Virus record (IMG/VR): IMGVR_UViG_3300017605_001116
Location: 1-41,595 of that record
Direction: 5' to 3' (one strand)
Source of the DNA: a virus
Length of the DNA: 41,595 nt
Of this stretch, positions 4,020 through 39,768 are shown piece after piece; position 1 is the first letter of the stretch; the number at the start of each line of letters is the position of its first letter. Position numbers and translations under genes: made by a program. The notes beneath the pieces were generated by a model. That model did not search any database, was not told where the DNA came from, and saw only the letters and a program-made list of their open reading frames with translations.

Positions 4020-4180
4020 AGGACGAGGAGGAGCTCCTTCGCGACGACCAGGCCCGCCAGGCCGAGATCGCCAAGGTGAAGTGGCACCTCGACTACGGCG
4101 GCGGCTACTTCATCGAGAAGGCGTCGCCGAAAGTCGCCGAGTACTGGGCTCGCATCGAGCGGTGGCTCCATGGCCGATGA
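4016..4180 (+). CDS. 54-residue mosaic protein with terminase N-tail and YFIEKAS module
   Basis: Residues 1-20 (MKDEEELLRDDQARQAEIAK) parallel the start of the terminase large subunit encoded next door (MADEDDLLREDQARQAEIAK). The rest (GGYFIEKASPKVAEYWARI...) matches the C-terminus of the gene at 40755-41045 at 20 of 23 positions. Equal length of the shared N-terminus and the ATGA overlap fix the start at 4016 rather than the in-frame ATG at 4004. It overlaps the terminase start by 11 bases. The synonymous codons differ, so the duplication is old or under selection. A role in binding a terminase partner is a reasonable inference. Confidence 0.7.
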   Translation: MKDEEELLRDDQARQAEIAKVKWHLDYGGGYFIEKASPKVAEYWARIERWLHGR

Positions 4181-5060
4181 AGACGACCTCCTGAGAGAGG
4201 ATCAAGCTCGGCAAGCCGAGATCGCCAAGCAGATCCACATCCACCGCCGCCTCGCCGAAGTCGGCGCCTTCTCGCTGTTCGTCCCCTCCAACTTCCAGCG
4301 AGAATGGTTTCAGACCGAGAAGAAGGTCACCACCCTCATCAAGGGCAACCAGACCGGCGGGACGACCTGCCTGGTGATTCGCATGCTGGCGTCGTGCCTC
4401 GGCACCTACCCGCTGGCGATGGGCGGCATCGTTCCGCCCGACTGGGGTCAACTGAGAATTCGCGAGCGCCCGGGCATGTACCTGCTGATGGGGAAGAACT
4501 TCACCAAGACCATCCCCGAGATCATCCTGCCGAAGCTCCGCGAGTTCGTCGCGCCGAACATGCTCTCCAAGAAGCCCAAGAAGAACCAGATGGGCGTCCC
4601 CTACATCTTCTACTTCAAGTCGGGCGCCGAGCTGCACCTGGCTTCCTACGATCAGGACGCGGAAAGCTTCGAGGGTAGCTTGTGGAACGGCATCGGCTTC
4701 GACGAGCCGCCAACGCGCGAGATCTACATGGCGTGTAGGCGCGGCACGATGCGGACGCGCGGCTGGATCTTCTTCTGCATGACGCCGCTGAAAAATATGT
4801 GGGTCTACGACGAGATCCACGTGCCCGCGCAGGAGGGGAAGCTCCCCGACGTCGCGCCATTCGAAGTGCATAGCCACCAGAACTGCACCACGTGCAACCC
4901 CGGCGAAGGGCACATCGACCACACCGAGCTGAACAACTTCTTCGCTGGCTTGACGCCGGCCGAGAGACGCGCTCGAGAGCTCGGCCTGCCGCTCGACTAC
5001 AGCAACGTGCGGTATGCGTTCGTCACGCAGGATACCCACGTGGTGAATAACCTGTGGTGA
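4170..5060 (+). CDS. terL: Terminase large subunit, N-terminal ATPase part
   Basis: The 296-residue protein carries the packaging ATPase. The P-loop is KGNQTGGTT (residues about 58-66): the usual GK is GG, with a Lys just before the loop, resembling the deviant Walker A of lambda gpA. Walker B is GIGFDEPP (about residues 173-180). A coupling-motif candidate is WIFFCMTPL. It stops at TGG-TGA just after THVVNN, the point at which TerL proteins normally continue through a WP motif into the nuclease domain. That domain is encoded separately from 5168. Related nuclease and ATPase domains usually form one chain of 450-600 residues, so the gene is interrupted. Confidence 0.88.
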   Translation: MADEDDLLREDQARQAEIAKQIHIHRRLAEVGAFSLFVPSNFQREWFQTEKKVTTLIKGNQTGGTTCLVIRMLASCLGTYPLAMGGIVPPDWGQLRIRERPGMYLLMGKNFTKTIPEIILPKLREFVAPNMLSKKPKKNQMGVPYIFYFKSGAELHLASYDQDAESFEGSLWNGIGFDEPPTREIYMACRRGTMRTRGWIFFCMTPLKNMWVYDEIHVPAQEGKLPDVAPFEVHSHQNCTTCNPGEGHIDHTELNNFFAGLTPAERRARELGLPLDYSNVRYAFVTQDTHVVNNLW

Positions 5061-5212
5061 CAGGATCGTGAGCGCGCCGCGCTTGTTCCCCCGAGGGACG
5101 AAAGCTCTGGGGAGTATCGGGCAACCCCTGAGGCAGGCCGGTGCGCTGACGATCTTGTGGCGGTGAGATGAGTCTCGACGGCGGCATGATGAACCTCGAT
5201 GCGCGGCAGTGG
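5051..5212 (+). ncRNA. Structured element splitting the terminase gene
   Basis: A hairpin CCTGT-GGTG-ACAGG (5051-5064) contains the last sense codon TGG and the TGA stop. Next, 5064-5078 pairs with 5140-5154 (14 of 15 positions, one G-G mismatch and one G-T). Inside are CCCC/GGGG, GAG/CTC and CCTG/CAGG stems. Homology resumes at TGG 5210-5212 (the W of RQWPLV), so joining the two TGG codons gives HVVNNLWPLVES and removes 152 nt. Candidates are an intron remnant, translational bypass as in T4 gene 60, or a simple insertion that created a two-chain terminase. It is shorter than typical group I or II introns, and I cannot see their conserved cores. Confidence 0.5.
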
Positions 5213-5899
5213 CCGCTCGTCGAGAGTTGCGATCCCAGCATGACTCGCGGCCTCTACGTGACGTGGATGCAGAAGGACCCGCGCACCGAGCGCTGGTACG
5301 TCGTCTGGGCGAGCCACATCGAGGACGCCGCCGTCTCCGTCATGGCAGAGCAGGTCAAGCGCGAGCGGAGATTCATCGGCAAGGAGCCGGACCTGGCGAT
5401 CATGGACGCCAAGGGTGGCCGCGCGAGAGTAGACAAGGAGCGCGATGAGGACTGGTTCATCCGCTTCAGGCAGCTCGGTCTCGACTACGTGCCGAACGAC
5501 GAGCCGGCGCCGCTAGAGGAGTTGGACGAATGGCTGAGGCCAGTCTGGGACCCCGTCTTGGAGAAGATGGTATCGAGGTTGATGATCACCCAGAGGGTGG
5601 CGGACTTGCCCCGGGGACCCTTGTGGGCACTCCAGAGGTTCCAGTGGGATCCGCTGTCGATGTCGACGAAGCAGCTCCTCGGGCAGCCGGGCAAGGACTA
5701 CGTCGACACTCTCAAGTACTTCGTGAACCAGAGGGCTATCAACCGGGGCCGCTTAGCGCGCGGACGAACTGGCGCCAAAAGGCGGTCGCAGGAAAGGCAA
5801 GCAAAGCTCGCCCAAAGCTACGGGTTCGGAAGAAGCGAAAACGCGAGCCGGGGGGACTCCCTTCGCCCCCGGATCTGGGCTCCGCCTTCGTACCGGTGA
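5168..5899 (+). CDS. terL: Terminase large subunit, C-terminal nuclease part
   Basis: The 243-residue protein has the RNase H-like nuclease fold of TerL. Acidic residues expected at the active site are visible: VESCDPS (about residue 22), IMDAKGG (about residue 78) and KDYVDTLKYF near residue 180, as in terminases that end with DALRYA. The Lys/Arg-rich C-terminus is typical. The first about 14 residues (MSLDGGMMNLDARQ) have no counterpart expected in TerL and may be an artefact of the split. The reading frame differs from part one. The start at 5168 has only a weak GGTGAG nearby. The stop overlaps the next gene by GTGA. Confidence 0.82.
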   Translation: MSLDGGMMNLDARQWPLVESCDPSMTRGLYVTWMQKDPRTERWYVVWASHIEDAAVSVMAEQVKRERRFIGKEPDLAIMDAKGGRARVDKERDEDWFIRFRQLGLDYVPNDEPAPLEELDEWLRPVWDPVLEKMVSRLMITQRVADLPRGPLWALQRFQWDPLSMSTKQLLGQPGKDYVDTLKYFVNQRAINRGRLARGRTGAKRRSQERQAKLAQSYGFGRSENASRGDSLRPRIWAPPSYR

Positions 5900-6465
5900 G
5901 GAATTATGATCTTGCGCTCAATAAGATCGAGGAACTGCAGAAGGTAATCCAGCAGTCCGAGAACCGCTTACAACTCATCTTCGCAAATCCCCACCTGATC
6001 GCCCTCGCGCGCGGCGATCTCTACTTGAAGAAGGAAGCGGTGGCGGCATTCCGCGAGCCGCTGGGTGTCTTCCTCTTCAACCTCATCCCGGCTTGGGTTA
6101 GAGGCATCAGTCGAGAGGAGCCGGCGGAGTACTCGCCCCCGCCGGATGCGGCGGTCGCGGAGCCCCGAGAAACGCAGTACATTCCTCCTGCGTCCCCCTC
6201 CACGGCGGTTGGTCCGCCGACCGTGGCCTCGGAGCTCCGCACCACCGTCGCGGCTGTAGTGACCGCTCTCGTTGAGATGGGCCTGATCCAGCCGCAGGGG
6301 CCGGCGATGAAGCCCATCCTCCCTGCGGAATTACACCCTGGCGCAGCGCCGACCGTTGTGGGAAATGAGATCGCTGGGGCTTGGCAACCACCCCCTCGGC
6401 CTACGATCGAAGGGCCGCGATCCGCCGTGAGACGGGCGATGTACGAGATGCTCTCAAGGGGCTGA
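5896..6465 (+). CDS. Hypothetical protein between terminase and portal
   Basis: The 189-residue protein starts at the GTG overlapping the terminase stop. The N-terminus is a predicted coiled coil (ALNKIEELQKVIQQSENRLQ), followed by a region with a hydrophobic patch (PLGVFLFNLIPAWVRG) and a long Pro-rich linker. A second helix follows (TVAAVVTALVEMGLIQ) before a disordered C-terminus. No family is recognised. Its place suggests a head or packaging accessory protein. Confidence 0.6.
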   Translation: MRNYDLALNKIEELQKVIQQSENRLQLIFANPHLIALARGDLYLKKEAVAAFREPLGVFLFNLIPAWVRGISREEPAEYSPPPDAAVAEPRETQYIPPASPSTAVGPPTVASELRTTVAAVVTALVEMGLIQPQGPAMKPILPAELHPGAAPTVVGNEIAGAWQPPPRPTIEGPRSAVRRAMYEMLSRG

Positions 6466-6788
6466 TGGACTGGGACGACCTCGACAAACGCTTCCGCAAG
6501 AAGGTTCGCGTCGCTGGGGGCGACGAGTGCTGGGAATGGACCGGGGGGCGGTTCTCGAATGGTTATGGCGTCTACTGGTCGCGAGATCATCAGGGCGCGA
6601 TGAGGGCACATCGGTTCGTCTTCATGCGCATGATCGGCCCGATCCCTGATGGACTCTTCGTCCTTCATCGCTGCGATATGCCTACTTGCGTGAACCCGAG
6701 ACACCTCTTCTTGGGCACTCAGGCGACGAATATGAGAGATCGGCATCGGAAAGGCCGCACCGCAGTGGCCGACCGCCCGGTCGGTTGA
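6465..6788 (+). CDS. HNH homing-type endonuclease
   Basis: The 107-residue protein has the HNH_3-type core: CWEWTGG, then RAHRFVFMRMIGPIPDG, then VLHRCDMPTCVNPRHLFLG and TNMRDRHRKGR. Catalytic His is in VLHRCD; Asn and His are in CVNPRHL. These small enzymes are free-standing nicking or homing endonucleases common in phages. The start ATG overlaps the preceding stop (TGATG). It lacks the C-terminal DNA-binding helix region seen in its two relatives in this genome (9336 and 32446), so specificity may be reduced or provided elsewhere. It lies between terminase and portal. Confidence 0.85.
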   Translation: MDWDDLDKRFRKKVRVAGGDECWEWTGGRFSNGYGVYWSRDHQGAMRAHRFVFMRMIGPIPDGLFVLHRCDMPTCVNPRHLFLGTQATNMRDRHRKGRTAVADRPVG

Positions 6789-6831: not shown

Positions 6832-8911
6832 CATGTTCGAGGACCCGAAGGCTTACGAGCAGTCCCTCGTCCCCGGGCTTGCCGCCCTTCTGACCGACAT
6901 CACGCCGGTCCCGGGCTGGGTCGCCTTGAAGCAGGAGTCCCAGCAGCAGGGCATGCCGCCCGAGATCCCCGGCATGGTCGCCGACCCCGAGACGGTGATC
7001 GCCAAGCTGACCAACGACCGGATCGTCCAGCAGACCCATTCCGACGTCGACGAGTCGAAGAACGCCCGCCAGGACCGCGAGGCTGACTGGCGCTCCAGCG
7101 CCGACCTCTACAACAACATCGGCGACGACTCGGGTAAGGCGCCGTGGCAGGCGCGCGTCTTCATTCCACAAATTCACGCCAAGATCGAAATGGCCCGCTC
7201 GCTCGTCAAGTCGAGCCTGCTCCAGAACCCCAACTGGTTCACCCTCGAGAAGCTCCCGACGTGGACTCCCGAGACCGCAGACGTGCAGTTCATCGAGCAC
7301 ATCTGCCGCGTCGTGCTCGACCTCGCCAACTTCATCGACGAGTACATGATGGCCCTCGAGGAAGGGTTCCTCTACGGCACCGGCTGCATCAAGCTCGTCT
7401 GGGAGCAGTGGATGGAGCGGAGCCCCGAGCTCCAGGACGTCCCCATCTACCAGGACCCGCAGCAGCAGCAGATGGCCCAGATGATGGGCCAGCCGACGAC
7501 GCGCCCGACCATCGTCTCTCAGCCTCGCCCGAGGTCGTGCCTTCGCGCGTACCAGGTCCCGGTCTGGAACATCTACCCAGACCCGTTCCACCAGGACTAC
7601 CGCCGCGGCCGCTACATGGTCGAGGAGCTGCTCGTCGATCAGGAGGAGATCGAGGACAACATCAAGCTCGGCGCCTACAACTGCCTCGACGACATCAAGG
7701 ACATCGGCGAGCCGTGCGGTACCACCTACGAGTTCGAGCGGCGCCAGCGGGAGGGGCGTCAGTCGTTGATCGGCCGCCGTGGCCCCCGCAAGCAGCATCT
7801 CCTGCAGATCAGGTACGGGAACTTCTACGACGACGACGGCTCGATGCTGGTCGAGAACTGGGTCTCCATCGTCGCCAACAAGAAGAAGGTCATCGCGCTT
7901 GACTCGAATCCCAGCTGGACCGGCAAGCGCCCGTACATCCTGACGACCCCGCTGCCCATGCGCGGCAGCCCGTGGGGACGGGAGATCATCTACGCAGCCA
8001 AGCCGCTGCAGGTCGTCTTGAACGCGATCTACAACCTGATGATCGACTCGACGACGTTCGGCGTGATCCCCGCCTGCACCGTCAACAAGAACAAGCTCGA
8101 CCCCGACGAGGACTTCGACTCGCTCACGCCCGGCGCGGTCTACCACGTGACCGGCGACGGGGCGATTCAGCCGCTGAAGATCGCGACAACGCCGTCCGAA
8201 GCGATGCCCATGATCCAGAGCTTCGAGGCGAAGATCGACGAGTCGACCATGATGTACGGCACGCTCGCCGGCGAGCCTCCGCTCAAGGGCAGAAGCACCG
8301 CGACGCAGTACCGCGGCGAAGTCTCGCAGGGCCGCTCCGCTGCGTCGATCCTGGCCCACGGCCTCCAGAAGCGCGACCTCGAGCCCGCCGTCCAGCTCGC
8401 CTACGAGAACATCCTTCAGTACCTGAGCGACATCAGCGACCCCAAGCTGCAGGAGGCGTTCAGCGTCTTCATGGGGCCGTCAAGCTTCCTCGACGAGTGG
8501 AACCGCTACCGCCTGCTGAATGCGAAGTTCCAGGTCAGAGCTCGCGGCATCTCGAACCAGATGGAGAAGGAGGATCAGCTCCAGAAGCTGATGCAGCTCT
8601 CCACCACCGCGCAGATGCTGCAGATGCCGTTCGACGTGCAGGGCAAGATCTTCTTCCGCACCGCCGAGGCGATGATGATCGATCCGCGCGAACTGAACGC
8701 GCCCGCGGACGAGGCCGGCTGGCAAGCCTTCACGCAGCAGATGATGGCCCAGCAGCAAGCGACTGGAGGGGGTCAGGGAGCAGGACCGGGCGGCGCACGC
8801 GGAGCGTCGCCGGAGCCGCCTGCTCCGCCGACTGGCCCCCCCGGTCCTCCTTCTCCGCAGGCTACGCAAAACATGGTGACGGCGAGTAGCGGGCCGCCGG
8901 CTGTGGGGTGA
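6824..8911 (+). CDS. Portal protein
   Basis: The 695-residue protein has the size and position of podovirus-type portals. It starts with a helical head (DRIVQQTHSDVDESKNARQD), continues with a mixed core (GRYMVEELLVDQEEI...), and has the portal-like LKGRSTATQYRGEVSQGRSAA segment followed by long helices (RDLEPAVQLAYENILQYLSD) and a Gln/Met-rich crown and a Pro/Gly-rich tail. Portals form the dodecameric ring through which DNA enters and leaves and which docks the terminase. Start codon is ATG at 6824 within a hairpin; ATG 6833 is possible. Location directly after terminase and before the coat gene is standard. Confidence 0.82.
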   Translation: MPGMFEDPKAYEQSLVPGLAALLTDITPVPGWVALKQESQQQGMPPEIPGMVADPETVIAKLTNDRIVQQTHSDVDESKNARQDREADWRSSADLYNNIGDDSGKAPWQARVFIPQIHAKIEMARSLVKSSLLQNPNWFTLEKLPTWTPETADVQFIEHICRVVLDLANFIDEYMMALEEGFLYGTGCIKLVWEQWMERSPELQDVPIYQDPQQQQMAQMMGQPTTRPTIVSQPRPRSCLRAYQVPVWNIYPDPFHQDYRRGRYMVEELLVDQEEIEDNIKLGAYNCLDDIKDIGEPCGTTYEFERRQREGRQSLIGRRGPRKQHLLQIRYGNFYDDDGSMLVENWVSIVANKKKVIALDSNPSWTGKRPYILTTPLPMRGSPWGREIIYAAKPLQVVLNAIYNLMIDSTTFGVIPACTVNKNKLDPDEDFDSLTPGAVYHVTGDGAIQPLKIATTPSEAMPMIQSFEAKIDESTMMYGTLAGEPPLKGRSTATQYRGEVSQGRSAASILAHGLQKRDLEPAVQLAYENILQYLSDISDPKLQEAFSVFMGPSSFLDEWNRYRLLNAKFQVRARGISNQMEKEDQLQKLMQLSTTAQMLQMPFDVQGKIFFRTAEAMMIDPRELNAPADEAGWQAFTQQMMAQQQATGGGQGAGPGGARGASPEPPAPPTGPPGPPSPQATQNMVTASSGPPAVG

Positions 8912-8914
8912 GCG

Positions 8915-9325
8915 ATGTCCATCACGCCGAACAAGCGCCAGTACGGGAGCACGTCGATCATCCGCGTCGCGACCACCTTCACCGGCGCCGCGCAAGGCAC
9001 CATCTGGACTCCCGCCGCAGGCAAGCGCATCACGCTGAAGGGCTGCGCCCTCAGGGCTCGCGTGACGACCGCCCTTGCCGGCGCGACTCCCGGCGATGCG
9101 ATCTTCCTCCTCGACAACGCCGTCGCGACGCCGCTCGTCTCGCTCGGCACCATCACCACGGCAACCGACGCCCCCGGCGCCGTGGCTTACGGCTTGACCT
9201 TCTTCGACTACGATTACGGCTACCAGCTCGCCGTCGGCAACGTGCTCAAGGTCTCCACCCTCGCGACCATCACCACCGGCGTGATCGCGGTGGAGGGCTT
9301 CGTCTGGGGAGACGAATCAGCGTAA
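8915..9325 (+). CDS. Small beta-rich putative decoration protein
   Basis: The 136-residue protein is made of alternating beta-strand-like Thr/Val/Ala segments and Gly/Pro turns (ITLKGCALRARVTTALAG...). It starts three bases after the portal stop. Similar composition and length are seen at 14466, 16089, 16742 and 17264, suggesting a set of small jelly-roll proteins on the virion. No catalytic motif is seen. Family assignment is by composition and position only. Confidence 0.6.
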   Translation: MSITPNKRQYGSTSIIRVATTFTGAAQGTIWTPAAGKRITLKGCALRARVTTALAGATPGDAIFLLDNAVATPLVSLGTITTATDAPGAVAYGLTFFDYDYGYQLAVGNVLKVSTLATITTGVIAVEGFVWGDESA

Positions 9326-9335
9326 GCTGCCGGCC

Positions 9336-10175
9336 ATGCATCCCTGGCTTGAGACGTCGAAGTTCGAGCAGCGGTACATTCCCGAGCCCAACACCGGGTG
9401 CTGGCTTTGGACGGCCGCTCTCTCTCCGAGTGGTTACGGTAGCGTTTGGCCCGAAGGTCGCCGCGTCGGCACATCCTGGCGAGCGCATCGGCTCGCCTAC
9501 GTGCTTTTCCGCGGCGATATCCCCGAAGGCATGCAGGTCCTCCATCGCTGCGACACGCCTTCCTGTGTGAACCCCGATCATCTCTTCCTTGGTACTCCGG
9601 CTGACAACAAGCGTGACGAGAGAGCGAAGGGGCGGTCGGCTATCGGCGAGCGACACCCTCGAGCCAGGCTGACCGCGGCGAATGTTCGCTCGATCCGCGA
9701 GCGCTACGGCCGGGACTCCACGGCGTCCCTCGCCCAGGAGTTCGGCATCTCGAAGTACCACGTCTGGGATGTCGCAAGGGGAAAAGCTTGGGCTTCGGTG
9801 CTGAAGCCCGTGCTGGCGCTGCTCTTCGTTAGCTTGGCAGCTAGTGCGAATGCGATGGTGGACACTACCTATAATCGCCATTCCCGAGGAAACGTCGTTT
9901 CGTACTCCCAGGTATCTTGCGGAACGACCAGTACGACGCTCAGAACGACCAACGTGGGAGTCTATGATCGACTCTCCATCACCATCAAGAACTGCGAAGC
10001 CAGCGGAGGCAATAACGTCTACGTCTGCCCAGGTTCGGCTACGTGCACGACCGCTACGGGTTTTCAGCTCGCGCCGCGTGAGGGATTTTGGATAGATTGG
10101 AGCAATAACGGCGTCATCAGCTGCATCGCCACGGTGGGCGCGGTGAACGTGTGCAACATCGACGAGCGAGACTAG
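9336..10175 (+). CDS. HNH endonuclease fused in frame to secreted protein
   Basis: Residues 1-154 are a complete HNH_3-type endonuclease: GCWLWTAALSPSGYG, RAHRLAYVLFRGDIPEG, VLHRCDTPSCVNPDHLFLG, then a DNA-binding region (ARLTAANVRSIRERYG ... SLAQEFGISKYHVWDVARG). No stop follows; the frame runs straight into a Sec signal-peptide protein whose own GTG start is at 9798. Either the endonuclease gene inserted upstream and lost its stop, or the two are made as a fusion and separately from the internal GTG. The first ATG is ten bases after the previous gene. Confident HNH; the fusion is what the sequence shows. Confidence 0.8.
   Translation: MHPWLETSKFEQRYIPEPNTGCWLWTAALSPSGYGSVWPEGRRVGTSWRAHRLAYVLFRGDIPEGMQVLHRCDTPSCVNPDHLFLGTPADNKRDERAKGRSAIGERHPRARLTAANVRSIRERYGRDSTASLAQEFGISKYHVWDVARGKAWASVLKPVLALLFVSLAASANAMVDTTYNRHSRGNVVSYSQVSCGTTSTTLRTTNVGVYDRLSITIKNCEASGGNNVYVCPGSATCTTATGFQLAPREGFWIDWSNNGVISCIATVGAVNVCNIDERD
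9798..10175 (+). CDS. Secreted Cys-containing protein (internal start)
   Basis: Reading from the GTG at 9798 gives 125 residues beginning MLKPVLALLFVSLAASANA, a textbook Sec signal peptide with an ANA cleavage site. The mature part has six cysteines, in VSCGTT, KNCEAS, YVCPG, TCTTA, ISCIA and VCNID, which could form disulfides in the periplasm or outside. Such a protein among head genes is unexpected. No family is recognised. It overlaps the start of the fibre gene by 25 bases. A weak upstream ribosome site means translation may depend on read-through from the HNH part. Confidence 0.55.
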   Translation: MLKPVLALLFVSLAASANAMVDTTYNRHSRGNVVSYSQVSCGTTSTTLRTTNVGVYDRLSITIKNCEASGGNNVYVCPGSATCTTATGFQLAPREGFWIDWSNNGVISCIATVGAVNVCNIDERD

Positions 10176-11848
10176 CTCTCCTCGCGCTGCTTCCTCTGCT
10201 GCTGGGATCGGGGCTTATCAGCGGCGGCGGTGGCGGTGGTGGTGGCGGCCCGGCGACGGATCTCACCTGCGTCGCCTGCGTGAGCGACGCCGAACTCGCC
10301 AGTAACTACTCCGGCATCGGTGCCTGCGGCGCGAGCACCTGGGCCAGCACGCTCAACGACAACGCTGCTCCCACCTGCACCCAGCCTGCCTTCACCGACA
10401 TCTCCGGCTCGGTCACCGACGCTCAGGTCCCGAACACGATCACCGTGGACCTCGCCACGGCAGCGACGGCGCTAGCGGCGAACCCTACGGACTGTGCGGC
10501 GAACCAGTTCGCCAATGCCATCGTCGCGAACGGGAACCTCACCTGCGCCCAGCCGAACTTCACCGACCTCGCGGGTACGGCGACCGACGCTCAGATCCCG
10601 AACACCATCACCATCAGCCTTGCCGCGACTGCCACGGCGCTGGCGGCCGATCCTACCGACTGCACCGCCAACCAATACGCGAATGCCATCGCCGCGAGCG
10701 GGAACCTCACCTGCGCGCAGCCGGACCACGCGAACCTCCAGAACCTAGCCATCGGCGATCCGCACACGCAGTACCTGCTCCTCGCCGGGCGATCGGGCGG
10801 GCAGTCAGCCAACGGCGGAACGGCCGCTGGCGATGACCTGACTCTCAACTCGACAGCCAACGCCACCAAGGGGTCCATCTTCTTCGGCTCAGAGTGGGAG
10901 TGGCTGGATCTGGTTCCAGACCCGGCAGACGGCACGAGCGGCAACGGCGGCCTCTGGAACCCAACAGTATCGGTCACCGGCAACGCAGGCACTACTTCAA
11001 ACCTCCGCGGAATCTATCTGAACCCGACCGTCAACTACAATGACGTTAGCCCCCATGTCGTCATCGACAGCTACAAGGCAGTCGAGGGCGCCGGGACGTT
11101 CACGGTTTCCGGCACTGCCACCCAAGCTTCGGCCTGGGCACTCTTCGCTGCCACTTCTACGTTGGATTCCACGCTGGCTACTGCCGTGCCTCCGACTCCG
11201 GTTGCGTTTCGATCCGCGCTGCTCATCAAGTATTCGGCAACCTCCGGCACCGGGGCCATGAACGGAACCGCGGCGGCCTTTCAGGACAGCAACACCTACC
11301 GAAATATAGATGCGGGCGGGACGTTCACCCTCGCCGCGCCGACGAGTTTCGTGTCGAGCCCGATCTTCACCGAGACGGCGGGCGCGCTCAATATCACCAC
11401 GTTCCGCGGCTTCTGGGCCGCCAACCCGACCATCAACGGCACGCCGCAGGTGACCACGCAGGTGGGCGTCGACATCGACAAGCCCACGCGCGCGGGTACC
11501 GGGGCGGGAAACATCGGGCTCCGCAACTCGGGGACAACCGTCTACACCAATACCAATCAGGCAGTGAACGCGGCGACCGACACCATCACGTGCGCGGCGA
11601 CCTACCAGACGATCACCCTTCCAAGCGGCAACATCACCCTGACTTCCAACCCCAGCATCGCCGACGGGGCGACCGGGCAGATCTGCATCCTCCAGAACGT
11701 CGGAGCCAACACGCTCACCCTGACCGACGCCACCAACGGCATGAACCTCGCCGCGGCCACGCGTGCGCTCGCGAGCGACGATACCCTCATGCTGATCTAC
11801 GGCGGTGCCGCAGGCGACTGGGTCGAGATCGCCTTCGCGAACAACTAG
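10151..11848 (+). CDS. Large repeat-containing fibre-like protein with signal-like N-terminus
   Basis: The 565-residue protein starts at GTG with a Leu-rich hydrophobic stretch (LALLALLPLLLGSGLIS) and a nine-Gly linker. Then come repeats of about 56 residues around TDAQVPNTITV ... PTDCAANQFA ... NGNLTCAQPNFTDL. The rest is Thr/Ala/Asn-rich beta structure ending in a C-terminal domain with ITLPSGNITLTSNPS. Such repeats are typical of surface adhesins and phage fibres. The N-terminal signal-like helix is atypical of a virion protein. It may be a tail or head fibre, or an exported surface protein. Confidence 0.6.
   Translation: MQHRRARLALLALLPLLLGSGLISGGGGGGGGGPATDLTCVACVSDAELASNYSGIGACGASTWASTLNDNAAPTCTQPAFTDISGSVTDAQVPNTITVDLATAATALAANPTDCAANQFANAIVANGNLTCAQPNFTDLAGTATDAQIPNTITISLAATATALAADPTDCTANQYANAIAASGNLTCAQPDHANLQNLAIGDPHTQYLLLAGRSGGQSANGGTAAGDDLTLNSTANATKGSIFFGSEWEWLDLVPDPADGTSGNGGLWNPTVSVTGNAGTTSNLRGIYLNPTVNYNDVSPHVVIDSYKAVEGAGTFTVSGTATQASAWALFAATSTLDSTLATAVPPTPVAFRSALLIKYSATSGTGAMNGTAAAFQDSNTYRNIDAGGTFTLAAPTSFVSSPIFTETAGALNITTFRGFWAANPTINGTPQVTTQVGVDIDKPTRAGTGAGNIGLRNSGTTVYTNTNQAVNAATDTITCAATYQTITLPSGNITLTSNPSIADGATGQICILQNVGANTLTLTDATNGMNLAAATRALASDDTLMLIYGGAAGDWVEIAFANN
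10415..10738 (+). repeat. Tandem repeats of about 168 bp within the fibre gene
   Basis: The block from TDAQVPNTITV to NFTDLAG is repeated about 168 bp later, starting near 10415 and 10583. A diverged half copy precedes at the 5' side (NDNAAPTCTQPAFTD). Each copy holds conserved Cys and the TDAQ...NTIT pattern. Length changes by recombination between copies are plausible. Confidence 0.7.
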
Positions 11849-17263: not shown

Positions 17264-17755
17264 ATGCCAGGCTACGCGCCGACCTCCGCGCCGCGCTCGT
17301 CCATGCCGACGACGGCGAACCTGCCGCAGCCGCGCGACGTGGCGATGCCCGACTTCACGTCGAACGTCTACGTCCCCTTCAGCGGCACCATCACCGGCGA
17401 CATCACCAACACGGCGAACATGCTCAACGTCTGGTCGCCGCGCGAAACCCGCTACGTACTCCGCGGCGGCTACGTCCACATCGTCTGCCTCGCCTCGCTC
17501 GCGGGGACGGCTACCGCTGCCGAGCTCTGGTTCTTCGACGAGACGAACGCACAGCCGGTGCTGCCGATCACCAGCTACCACGGCACCCTGACGCTCATAA
17601 ACTGGGTCAACGCGATCACCCCGTGGCACTTCGACCTGGGCAAGGGCTTCAAGAGCGCGGTCAAGAACAACCACCTGCGCATCGGCGGCACTCTCGCCAT
17701 CGGCGCGGGGCAGCTCTACTGCTCAGGCAATCTCTGGGGCGTGCAGGAGCTCTGA
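17264..17755 (+). CDS. Beta-rich hypothetical virion protein
   Basis: The 163-residue protein has a Pro-rich N-terminus (APTSAPRSSMPTTANLPQP) and a beta domain (GGYVHIVCLASLAGTATAAE). It lies directly between the small 41-residue gene and the nozzle gene. Style similar to the genes at 8915, 14466 and 16742. Probably a tail-attached or decoration protein. Confidence 0.6.
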   Translation: MPGYAPTSAPRSSMPTTANLPQPRDVAMPDFTSNVYVPFSGTITGDITNTANMLNVWSPRETRYVLRGGYVHIVCLASLAGTATAAELWFFDETNAQPVLPITSYHGTLTLINWVNAITPWHFDLGKGFKSAVKNNHLRIGGTLAIGAGQLYCSGNLWGVQEL

Positions 17756-31813: not shown

Positions 31814-32458
31814 TCACGCCACTGCTTGCTGCTGCTGCGCCTCCTGCCACCTGACCAAGATGTCGGCGAACGTATCGACGTCCCTCGCCGCCCCGTAGCG
31901 CACGAGCTTCGCCCCATCGGGCCAGAGGTACAGGCAGCCCGTCACGGCGGCGTCGGGGCCGAGCCGCTGCGCTACTGCGACCCGCTGCGCCGCGACCTCT
32001 AGGGCGTGCCGCTTCTGCTCGTCGACGCTAGGCATGCGCCCAGACTTCGACTTGGTCTTGATGTCGACGATCCAGACGTGGCCGTCGCGCTCGATCACGC
32101 GGTCGGGGCGGACGATGTAGTTGACGCCTGCGAGGCTGCCCCAGAGGGGCTTCTCGATTGCGAGGAGCTTGTCACTTGGCTGGCGCCACGCCTGCCAGGC
32201 GAGGATGTACTGGCGCATCTCTTCCGACTTCTCGACGGAGGGCCAGTGGAGATCCTTCTCGTCGAGGTAGTGGAGTGCCGTGTGGACCTTGGAGCCGCGG
32301 TCCATGGCGACCCAGACGTTCGGCACGTCGGGCGGGCCTCCCAAATGCCAGCTGATCACTCCAGTGGCCGAAGGAACTTTCGTTGCGTCCCAGTAGTCCG
32401 GTAATACATCGGCGTATATTTCCCATGCTTTACGATGCTCGGGGACTACGCTGTCCAT
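31814..32458 (-). CDS. PD-(D/E)XK exonuclease, RecB/Cas4-like
   Basis: The 214-residue protein has the exonuclease motifs: a GSKVHTALHYLDE start of fold, then IVRPDRVIERDGHVWIVDIKTKSKSG, with Asp in PDR and the D-x-K of DIKTK, followed by the Q of HALEVAAQRVAV. Such enzymes trim DNA ends to give single-strand substrate for RecT. Start ATG has GGGGAGAG upstream and overlaps the HNH end by 13 bases. The pair exonuclease plus RecT, divided by an HNH gene, is a classic phage recombination module. Confidence 0.8.
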   Translation of the reverse strand: MDSVVPEHRKAWEIYADVLPDYWDATKVPSATGVISWHLGGPPDVPNVWVAMDRGSKVHTALHYLDEKDLHWPSVEKSEEMRQYILAWQAWRQPSDKLLAIEKPLWGSLAGVNYIVRPDRVIERDGHVWIVDIKTKSKSGRMPSVDEQKRHALEVAAQRVAVAQRLGPDAAVTGCLYLWPDGAKLVRYGAARDVDTFADILVRWQEAQQQQAVA

Positions 32459-32916
32459 GTCTCTCCCCTGTAGATGCGAGCGATGGTGGACTTGGTAACC
32501 GCATACATCCTGGCCGCGGTGCGTTGGCCTACGGACCCCTTCAGCTGGCGGATCTCTTCTACTTGGGCGCGGGTAAGCTTTGCCCCGGGGTTCTTCTCGC
32601 CCTTAAGGGTGCGCCCGCTTACGGTACGATCCCGCATGTTGTCCGCGTGCGTACCTAAGTAGAGATGATCCGGGCGAACGCAGGAGGCGTTGTTGCAGAG
32701 GAAGGGGTGATGAAGGACATGTTGGCCCTTCGGAATCGGTCCGTAGGTCAACTCCCATGCAACCCGATGCGCATGGAGAGCTTTGCCTTTGATCCCCACT
32801 GCACCGTACCCGCCGTGATGCTTCGACTTCGCCCACTCCCAGCAGCCAGCGGTCTTGTTGACGCTGGCCCAGAATCGCTGCTCCAGAGTTGCCGCTGCCG
32901 ATGCCGCCGTGGTCAT
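32446..32916 (-). CDS. HNH homing-type endonuclease inserted in the recombination operon
   Basis: The 156-residue protein carries CWEWAKSKHHGGYG, LHAHRVAWELTYGPIPKG, HVLHHPFLCNNASCVRPDHL and DNMRDRTVSGR, then a DNA-binding tail (LTRAQVEEIRQLKGS ... TKSTIARIYRGE). The insertion in HPFLCNNASCVRPDHL differs from the other two copies (CDxPxCVN), where the N is replaced by R, so the third motif is altered. Start ATG overlaps the recT stop by ATGA. It separates recT from the exonuclease, most likely a selfish insertion. Confidence 0.82.
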   Translation of the reverse strand: MTTAASAAATLEQRFWASVNKTAGCWEWAKSKHHGGYGAVGIKGKALHAHRVAWELTYGPIPKGQHVLHHPFLCNNASCVRPDHLYLGTHADNMRDRTVSGRTLKGEKNPGAKLTRAQVEEIRQLKGSVGQRTAARMYAVTKSTIARIYRGETWTA

Positions 32917-33920
32917 AGCGGCATCGGGTCGCGCAGGCGCGCGCAGATGTCCTCGAGCTGATCCTTGTGGATCTCGCTCGTCGAGCTGTAGCCGTACATG
33001 GCTCGGAGCCACTCCTTCGCGGAGTCCTTGGGATGGTGTCCCTGCTCGCGGCAGACGTGAAAGTAACGCCTATCTTTTTCGTTGATGAGGATCGGCTCGT
33101 CCAAGTCGCCCTCCAGCGCGTCGAGAAGTAGTGAGGGCGCCGCCCCATCCTCAGACACAACGTCCGAGGATCTGGGGAGATTCGCACCATCGGCGAGGAC
33201 CGATGTGGATGCGGGAGCGGCGCCCCCGGCGACCTCTACAGATGCCTGCAGGGCCACTTCAAGATCTGCGTCGCTGGTCCCCTCGAGGACCTCGCCCGTC
33301 TCGCGGTCGACGGCGCTGGCGCGGAGCGGCGTCGGGAGGTCGCTCGTGGGCCGGGCCTCCTTCACCTGCTCGTCCTCGGACGGGTAGTCGGCCGCCTCCT
33401 CGCGGGTGATCACGCCCTTCAGCACGTCGGGGAAGCCAGCCCGCATGCAGGCCGAGCGAGCTCGGGCGACGAGCATGACGTCGGGGTAGGACGCCCAGAC
33501 GTTCTTGCCGGCCAGCTTGGCCCTCGTGGCGTCGGCCATGGAGAACGTCTTCACGTAGGGTGTCGGGCGACCGCGACGGTTCATGCGGCAGAAGCCCTCG
33601 CGGGCCATGCCCTCGCCGCGGACACCTTCCTCGTGGTCCTCGAGGAGCCCGCTGGCTTGGACGAGGGCGATCGCACCGTCGCCCCAGACGCTGGGCTTCC
33701 CGTTGATCACCGAGATCGACTGGAGGGCCGAGAGGGGCGAGAGTCCGAGCTCGGCGCCCATCTGCAGGCAGACGAGGATATCGCCGGGCTTACCCCGGTA
33801 CTCGACCGGGACGAAGTTCGAGTTGGCGATCAGCTTGGAGAACTCCATCGCCTCGCTGAGCGTCGTCGGGGCGAAGGACGTCGGCCTGGCCGGTCGTGCA
33901 GTAGCTAGCTCGGTGTTCAT
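32913..33920 (-). CDS. recT: RecT-family single-strand annealing recombinase
   Basis: The 335-residue protein shows the RecT-like pattern FVPVEYRGKPGDILVCLQMG, LGLSPLSALQSISVINGKPS and WGDGAIALVQ, a highly characteristic run. Later come TFSMADATRAKLAGKN and MLVARARSACMRAGFPDVLK as in RecT relatives. It anneals complementary strands made by the downstream exonuclease. A long acidic disordered linker (TSDLPTPLRASAVDRETGE ...) and a C-terminal domain follow. The start is set by ATGA overlap with the preceding gene; an upstream extension to 34295 is a shadow. Conservation is strong. Confidence 0.88.
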   Translation of the reverse strand: MNTELATARPARPTSFAPTTLSEAMEFSKLIANSNFVPVEYRGKPGDILVCLQMGAELGLSPLSALQSISVINGKPSVWGDGAIALVQASGLLEDHEEGVRGEGMAREGFCRMNRRGRPTPYVKTFSMADATRAKLAGKNVWASYPDVMLVARARSACMRAGFPDVLKGVITREEAADYPSEDEQVKEARPTSDLPTPLRASAVDRETGEVLEGTSDADLEVALQASVEVAGGAAPASTSVLADGANLPRSSDVVSEDGAAPSLLLDALEGDLDEPILINEKDRRYFHVCREQGHHPKDSAKEWLRAMYGYSSTSEIHKDQLEDICARLRDPMPL

Positions 33921-38460: not shown

Positions 38461-39768
38461 ATGTTCTTCAAGTCTTTCGCACTCGTCCTCGTCCTAGCGA
38501 CATCCGCAACGGCCCAGACGCCGGTCTCCGAGGTGCTCAGCGCAGCCCTCGTCGGCCCGTTCGACCAGACTCAAGGCCACAAGACCTACGTGACCGCGAG
38601 CTCCCCGGGCGCCTTCAGCCCCTCGACAGGCATCCCAGCCGTCGTCGTCCACTGGACGTTCTGGTCCGACAGCTGCCAGCACCTCGCCGACTTCAACACC
38701 TGCCTCACCCGCGACGACTCGGTCGTCCTCGACGTCAGCGACATGGGCGGCATCGACGCCGAGAACGTGCCCCTCGAGAGTCGCGTCGACCTGACGGGCT
38801 ACCGCGGCAGCTACACCGCGCACGCCTTCGAGGCGGACGACCGCTGCAGAGATCCCGCAGACCGTGGCTTCGTGCTGGTCGAGGACGCCATCGCGGGGAC
38901 ATGGAGCATCGCCAACACCCGCAGCAACGCAGCCTTCGGCGATCGCGCCCAAAGCCTCCGCATCGACCCCGAGACCCACGCCATTGCCGTACCCGACCGC
39001 AAGTTCACGGCGCTCGACCTGCCGTTCTTCAACCCCGAGAGCCTGAACGACTCCGAGGTGATCATCCTCGCGGTGGTCGAGGGGTTCGGGGACCTGCCCG
39101 GCGAGATCGGCCCGCCCCAAGGCAGGGTGGTGATCGCGACCCAGGTGAAGGCGTGCGACACGCAGGAGACCTGCATCTCGCTGCCCGACCTCCAGCTCTC
39201 GTGCGCCCTGTACTCGACGTTGGTCCCGTCGCCGGGCGGGCTGATCCCCGAGACGCTCATGCCCGGCTCGAGCGGCTTCCTGCGGCTGAGCTCGCCGCGG
39301 TTCGTGGTGAGCGACCCCGCCATCGTGGGCGACTCGACCTGGCTCTACGCCTGGCACGGGCAGCAGCTCGGAGCCTACGGCACGGGGAGCAGGGGCACCT
39401 ACCTCGATCCGATCACCTTCGCGACGCCGACTCCGACCCCGAGCGCGACTCCGACGCCAAGCCTGACTCCCGGGGCAACGCCGACTCTCCCGGTGGCGAC
39501 CGCCACCCCGTCGCCGGCTGCCTCGGCTACCCCGGGAGTCTCCCCGACGCCAGAATTGACCGCCACGCCCTCGTTGACCGCGACCCCTGGTCCGACTACC
39601 TCCGGGACGCCGATCGCCTCTCCTACGCCAAGCCAGAGCGTTCCGACGCCATCCTCGTCGCCGTCAGCGACGCCAACAGCGACCGCGAGCCCTGTTTCGA
39701 CTGCCACGTCTACGCCTACGCCTAGTCCTACGCCTGGGCCTACGGGTACGGTCTTCGGCCCGCCGTGA
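38461..39768 (+). CDS. Secreted protein with Thr/Pro-rich C-terminal tail
   Basis: The 435-residue protein starts with a Sec signal peptide MFFKSFALVLVLATSATAQ. A globular Cys-containing beta-rich domain of about 300 residues follows, with no recognised catalytic motif. The C-terminal about 105 residues are Thr/Pro/Ser repeats (PTPTPSATPTPSLTPGATPT), like flexible or glycosylated linkers of surface proteins. A good AGGGGG site precedes the ATG. Such a gene among replication genes is unusual for a lytic function and may be a cargo gene expressed by the lysogen to alter the host surface. Confidence 0.68.
   Translation: MFFKSFALVLVLATSATAQTPVSEVLSAALVGPFDQTQGHKTYVTASSPGAFSPSTGIPAVVVHWTFWSDSCQHLADFNTCLTRDDSVVLDVSDMGGIDAENVPLESRVDLTGYRGSYTAHAFEADDRCRDPADRGFVLVEDAIAGTWSIANTRSNAAFGDRAQSLRIDPETHAIAVPDRKFTALDLPFFNPESLNDSEVIILAVVEGFGDLPGEIGPPQGRVVIATQVKACDTQETCISLPDLQLSCALYSTLVPSPGGLIPETLMPGSSGFLRLSSPRFVVSDPAIVGDSTWLYAWHGQQLGAYGTGSRGTYLDPITFATPTPTPSATPTPSLTPGATPTLPVATATPSPAASATPGVSPTPELTATPSLTATPGPTTSGTPIASPTPSQSVPTPSSSPSATPTATASPVSTATSTPTPSPTPGPTGTVFGPP

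Follow-up and report, generated by a model that had tools for sequence, protein, structure and literature searches.

According to the account given in PMC2988022, the T4-type endonuclease genes segC, segF, mobA, mobC and mobE each overlap the gene upstream of them and lack a clear ribosome-binding site. In the description of "HEG-islands", nuclease genes mark the boundaries of exchange (PMC10448857), and in lactococcal phages HNH genes are numerous and occupy particular insertion places (PMC12724721). The main text of the latter does not contain the words "fusion", "fused" or "in-frame", and among the titles listed in searches of open-access papers none reported an HNH gene fused in frame to a downstream or secreted gene, which is weak evidence of absence. 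Here we describe a locus in a 41595-base virus record (hereafter the window, meaning the whole stretch of DNA that was analysed) in which the frame of an HNH gene continues into that of a downstream gene, referred to as B. The features of the locus are collected in Table 1.

Table 1. Features of the HNH-B locus and HNH sites compared between the window and its relatives (coordinates are those of the window)
Feature	Coordinates	Strand	Description and basis
Gene A	8915..9325	+	136 aa; upstream neighbour; the relatives' A end contains the ancestral B start
ACG in place of the ATG of B	9312..9314	+	aligned A ends; ATG in L084 and L091
HNH endonuclease	9336..9800	+	residues 1-155 of the 279-aa frame; Pfam HNH_3, PHROGs, end of the relatives, confident fold
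SD-like stretch AAGGGGAAA	9776..9784	+	in the last HNH codons; duplex energy -7.5 kcal/mol, spacing 13 to GTG 9798
GTG, putative internal start of B	9798..9800	+	yields 125 aa, equal to the length in L084
Signal-peptide-like segment of B	9798..9854	+	19 residues, ends in A-N-A; hydropathy and comparison with L084 and L091
Mature B	9855..10175	+	106 residues plus stop; 87% identical to L084; phrog_30212
Gene C	10151..11848	+	565 aa; overlaps the end of B; related C in L084 and L091
HNH site 1			between the two terminase pieces; L084 only
HNH site 2			ahead of the portal gene; window, common to L090
HNH site 3			between A and B; window only

Elsewhere the window looks like a temperate tailed phage, with genes for terminase, major head protein, SU10-like portal, integrase and DNA methyltransferase. 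When genome contigs were searched with the portal protein for a host or a prophage, 356 stretches matched and none was a relative. The window (4170-5060 and 5168-5899) and all four relatives examined (L084, L090, L091 and L092) each carry the large terminase as two separate ORFs; the spacer between the two pieces is 13 bases in L091 and L092, about 110 in the window and about 180 in L090, and in L084 it holds an HNH gene. A second HNH gene of the window (6465-6788; 5043-5369 in L090) lies just ahead of the portal gene, its ATG overlapping the stop of the preceding ORF, and was not found at that place in L084 or L091. The end of a third HNH gene (32446-33012, minus strand) overlaps the start of an exonuclease-like gene (31814-32458). 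Positions 38461-39768 encode a 435-aa protein with a signal-peptide-like start, no Pfam match and only a weak PHROG match.

A first-pass annotation had reported that a complete HNH endonuclease at 9336-10175 runs stop-free and in frame into a protein with its own signal peptide and GTG start. Our analysis confirmed the read-through at the same coordinates, where a single plus-strand frame encodes 279 aa without an internal stop. Pfam HNH_3 (PF13392) matched residues 50-93 with an E value of 1.6e-13 (50.5 bits against a curated cut-off of 24.8), and matches to PHROG HNH families spanned about residue 10 to residue 158. The HNH query also matched in 1763 named phage records. From IMG/VR we used the best 80 of 196 related stretches, and in an alignment with 26 of these 80 the nearly invariant columns included H70, C72, C77, N79 and H82. 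The structure model of the fusion was confident to about residue 150, with pLDDT below 50 from residue 156, and the best match to a solved fold was I-HmuI (1u3e, E 9.9e-4), the only one of the 499 listed matches with E up to 0.001. Residues 1-155 are a complete HNH endonuclease with an intact frame and the conserved residues of its family, which has its own ATG and no stop of its own before B. By its domain and patchy presence it would be a free-standing HNH homing gene, for which cutting and homing are predicted.

We then examined where the HNH ends. Among the 80 relatives, 72 align to residue 147 or beyond, and most of these (60/72) stop at most 6 residues from the place aligned to residue 155; another seven stop at 7-30 residues and five later, with tails longer than 30 aa. 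By eye, the long tails look like extra helix-turn-helix, zinc-ribbon-like or short proline-rich stretches, and none resembles a signal peptide. The family frequently ends in GKxWxHV or similar, followed by a stop, and the HNH of the window ends in GKAWASV, whose final V is encoded by the GTG of B. By chance, about one join in three would preserve the frame, so that the shared frame by itself is weak evidence; what goes beyond chance is that the join falls at the usual end of the HNH family and that B is a separate gene in relatives without the HNH. Because the HNH relatives normally end at this place, the endonuclease would have lost its own stop, at the join.

With B as query, IMG/VR yielded a single relative, L084 (81% identical across residues 6-125), and a second B-bearing contig, L091, was found with a portal protein query. 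Both have the order A-B-C with no HNH between A and B, and in both the ATG of B lies within the last codons of A (B at 5989-6366, 125 aa, in L084; at 7150-7524, 124 aa, in L091). The A protein of the window is 97% identical to that of L084 and 87% to that of L091, and the HNH starts 21 bases past the ACG that replaces this ATG, in the same frame. The HNH is thus patchy at the A/B boundary, being present in the window and absent from L084 and L091. These two HNH-less phages give good support to the proposal that an endonuclease was inserted directly upstream of the secreted gene, and the comparison suggested in the first-pass annotation for finding the ancestral start of that gene places its ATG inside the end of A. 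In L090 none of A, B and C is matched, and the portal gene directly adjoins the gene that otherwise follows C, so A-B-C looks like an accessory segment; L092 is uninformative for A-B-C because the contig ends inside the portal gene. A distant relative of gene A was detected in the same genome as the locus, at 17264-17755 (profile E 5.8e-5). Gene C is long and contains repeats, with a conserved hydrophobic N-terminal segment followed by a glycine run, and its product, encoded next to B, may be exported or membrane-anchored as well.

After the GTG, the N-terminus of B reads LKPVLALLFVSLAASANA. Its pattern (basic start, hydrophobic core and A-x-A) and its hydropathy fit a signal peptide in the window, L084 and L091, with best 11-residue hydropathies of 2.82, 2.22 and 2.29, respectively. 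B matches phrog_30212, a PHROG without known function, with an E value of 4.2e-5. Searches with B alone yielded nothing in named phages (E up to 1), in PDB sequences (E up to 10) or above the Pfam cut-off. Since B was poorly modelled both alone (mean pLDDT 51) and in the fusion, we claim no fold for it. When differences in mature B were polarised with L091, the changes specific to the window comprised no amino-acid and 13 synonymous changes, whereas those specific to L084 comprised 6 and 3 (p = 0.001); 7 amino-acid and 21 synonymous differences were unpolarised. The absence of amino-acid changes against 13 synonymous ones indicates that B was constrained on the window's branch, and this constraint could partly be older than the HNH insertion. 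In the signal segment, 4 amino-acid changes are specific to the window and 4 to L084, with 5 unpolarised, and its hydrophobic character is kept.

Three observations favour GTG 9798 as the start of B, namely the length of the unfused protein, the SD-like stretch and the constraint on B, and B is most likely made mainly from this internal codon. The first-pass annotation had suggested that the second part may be made only from its own start; a putative own start is what these observations favour. In our anti-SD scan, where 13 was the largest spacing permitted, the SD-like stretch lies beyond the 5th percentile of 274 gene-internal positions (-7.1), and the best SD matches of the two unfused B genes stand at the same spacing of 13 with energies of -9.8 and -6.0. 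The alternative starts of B gave -3.8 (CTG 9801), -3.0 (GTG 9810) and -1.8 (ATG 9855), and the HNH's own ATG gave -0.6. Against an internal start, the spacing of 13 is long, GTG is a weaker start than ATG, and ribosomes traversing the HNH may block GTG 9798. In 45 dereplicated HNH genes, the SD-like energy at the 3' end averaged -6.1, compared with -5.3 in synonymous shuffles (p = 0.003) and -4.5 in other segments of the same genes (p = 0.0003). Tight gene packing alone would produce such a signal, so we do not offer it as special.

Divergence between the window and its relatives changes at the insertion. Synonymous divergence (dS) between the window and L084, calculated on single pairs with a custom Nei-Gojobori script and near saturation at the upper values, was 0.25 in the second terminase piece (ter2), 0.24 in the portal gene and 0.27 in A, and rose to 0.98 in B (A vs B, p = 2e-5); past B it was 0.91 for most of C and fell to 0.40 in D and 0.28 in E, the two genes that follow. 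The A/B step was also present between the window and L091 (A 0.54, B 1.42; p = 0.001), whereas L084 and L091 showed none between them (A 0.61, B 0.47; p = 0.45), which assigns the excess divergence to the window's B. The HNH and mature B had third-position G+C contents (GC3) of 0.73 and 0.70, compared with 0.91 in the portal gene and 0.90 in A; mature B of L084 and B of L091 had values of 0.95 and 0.83. As a control, 15 other window genes, C not among them, gave 48 stretches of 105 codons, none of which had a GC3 of 0.70 or less (lowest 0.73); C itself contains one 70-codon stretch at 0.69. Since HNH and B are both low in GC3 and dS jumps at the insertion, the HNH and the window's allele of B probably arrived together, via homing with co-conversion. 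Two points count against joint arrival: some of the pattern may reflect a B-C segment exchanged by other means, and the GC3 match may be coincidental, other HNH genes that we saw being equally low (0.71-0.73).

The HNH content of the window departs from that of L084 at three sites, and identity changes near all three. At site 1, dS was 1.89 in the first terminase piece against the low value in ter2, and the rise in identity falls inside ter2, whose first 75-base stretches are 72, 83 and 97% identical. At site 2, identity is 61-79% in the last six such stretches ahead of the HNH gene and 88-97% in the first four of the portal gene, with one drop to 76% in later portal stretches. At site 3, it is 96 and 88% in the final two stretches of A and 58-84% in the five of B. 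Identity steps without an HNH exist too, for example near 6068, so the agreement at all three HNH sites is suggestive only.

Several other readings of the locus were weighed. The 279-aa fusion could be the main product, its internal signal serving as a signal-anchor that moves B across the inner membrane; signal peptidase may then cut after A-N-A, with the HNH left cytoplasmic or membrane-tethered. The frame is continuous and even matches the phase of B's former start codon, the signal has been kept and is more hydrophobic than in L084 or L091, and the SD spacing is long for an internal start. We nevertheless regard this reading as unlikely, because the HNH start is almost without an SD match compared with GTG 9798 and a B started at the GTG would be as long as the free protein. 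A related idea is that one HNH-B chain is made, the internal signal exports B and signal peptidase splits the two, giving one expression unit in which loss of the HNH means loss of B. Such an addiction-like link would, if true, fix the homing gene; we hold it to be quite doubtful. As for a nuclease at the envelope, which the first-pass annotation had envisaged for the chimera, a Sec signal that lies behind the nuclease leaves the HNH expected on the cytoplasmic side even in the full fusion. With the signal C-terminal to the nuclease, an envelope nuclease is unlikely, and the proposal found no support. It is also improbable that an assembly or sequencing error hides a stop and that HNH and B are two ordinary adjacent genes. 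The window is known from a single metagenomic record, and HNH relatives do stop at this place, but alignments with relatives support the correct frame as far as W152 in the HNH and again from about residue 157 in B; few codons are left where an error could hide a stop, and those at the join contain no long homopolymer.

Turning to the origin of the arrangement, the HNH might be dead or passive and have been carried along when ordinary recombination (fibre swapping) exchanged the B-C segment. The divergence of C, which resembles that of B, and the identity steps without an HNH speak for this account, but we find it somewhat unlikely: the HNH frame is intact with the conserved residues of the family present, and the divergence step falls exactly at the insertion. 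Far more remote, to the point of being nearly negligible, is the idea that B is restored by splicing of an intein-like or intron-like element. The insert does share the frame of the old B gene and sits in its 5' end, but the old start codon is gone and an entire signal peptide follows the insert. Among Pfam matches of the 279-aa protein at E 0.1 we found HNH-type domains only and no Hint (protein-splicing) domain, and no Rfam family, group I and group II introns included, reached the gathering threshold in the window, a screen that divergent introns could escape; the intron or intein reading was rejected on these results.

The explanation that we favour, and consider reasonably probable as a whole, is an HNH homing gene at the A/B boundary that arrived together with its B allele and lost its stop, with B made mainly from GTG 9798. 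In this sequence of events, a free-standing HNH gene of the HNH_3 type with an I-HmuI-like fold would have entered the A/B boundary of a temperate phage and replaced the start codon of the small gene B, whose product is probably exported. Homing would have brought the adjoining allele of B by co-conversion, and the HNH stop would have been lost at the join. B would then be translated mainly from the internal GTG via the SD-like stretch in the last HNH codons, a start that would keep the signal peptide N-terminal and leave export of B unchanged; some 279-aa read-through would be made whenever the HNH is translated, probably as a by-product. At this locus, the states of a gene boundary before and after the arrival of a phage homing gene can be compared, with a recognisable altered old start, a possible new start in the last codon of the insert and a neighbouring allele that was seemingly co-transferred. 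It shows one possible way in which an insert can be tolerated without silencing the downstream gene, and is a neat yet mostly ordinary case of phage gene mobility.

Compared with known systems, the HNH of the window resembles free-standing phage HNH homing endonucleases (HNH_3; I-HmuI-like) in its domain, its fold and its patchy presence at gene boundaries, and differs from them in having no stop of its own, so that its frame enters the next gene; its cutting is a prediction. It shares with the T4-type endonucleases, as they are presented in PMC2988022, a packing against the neighbour so tight that translation is tied to it, as well as the want of a clear ribosome-binding site for the endonuclease. 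Those genes overlap the upstream gene with an intervening stop, whereas the HNH of the window merges with the downstream gene. In lying at a divergence step between related phages, the HNH of the window agrees with the picture of HEG-islands drawn in PMC10448857, although here the pattern concerns three sites in one contig pair, in which HNH-free steps exist as well.
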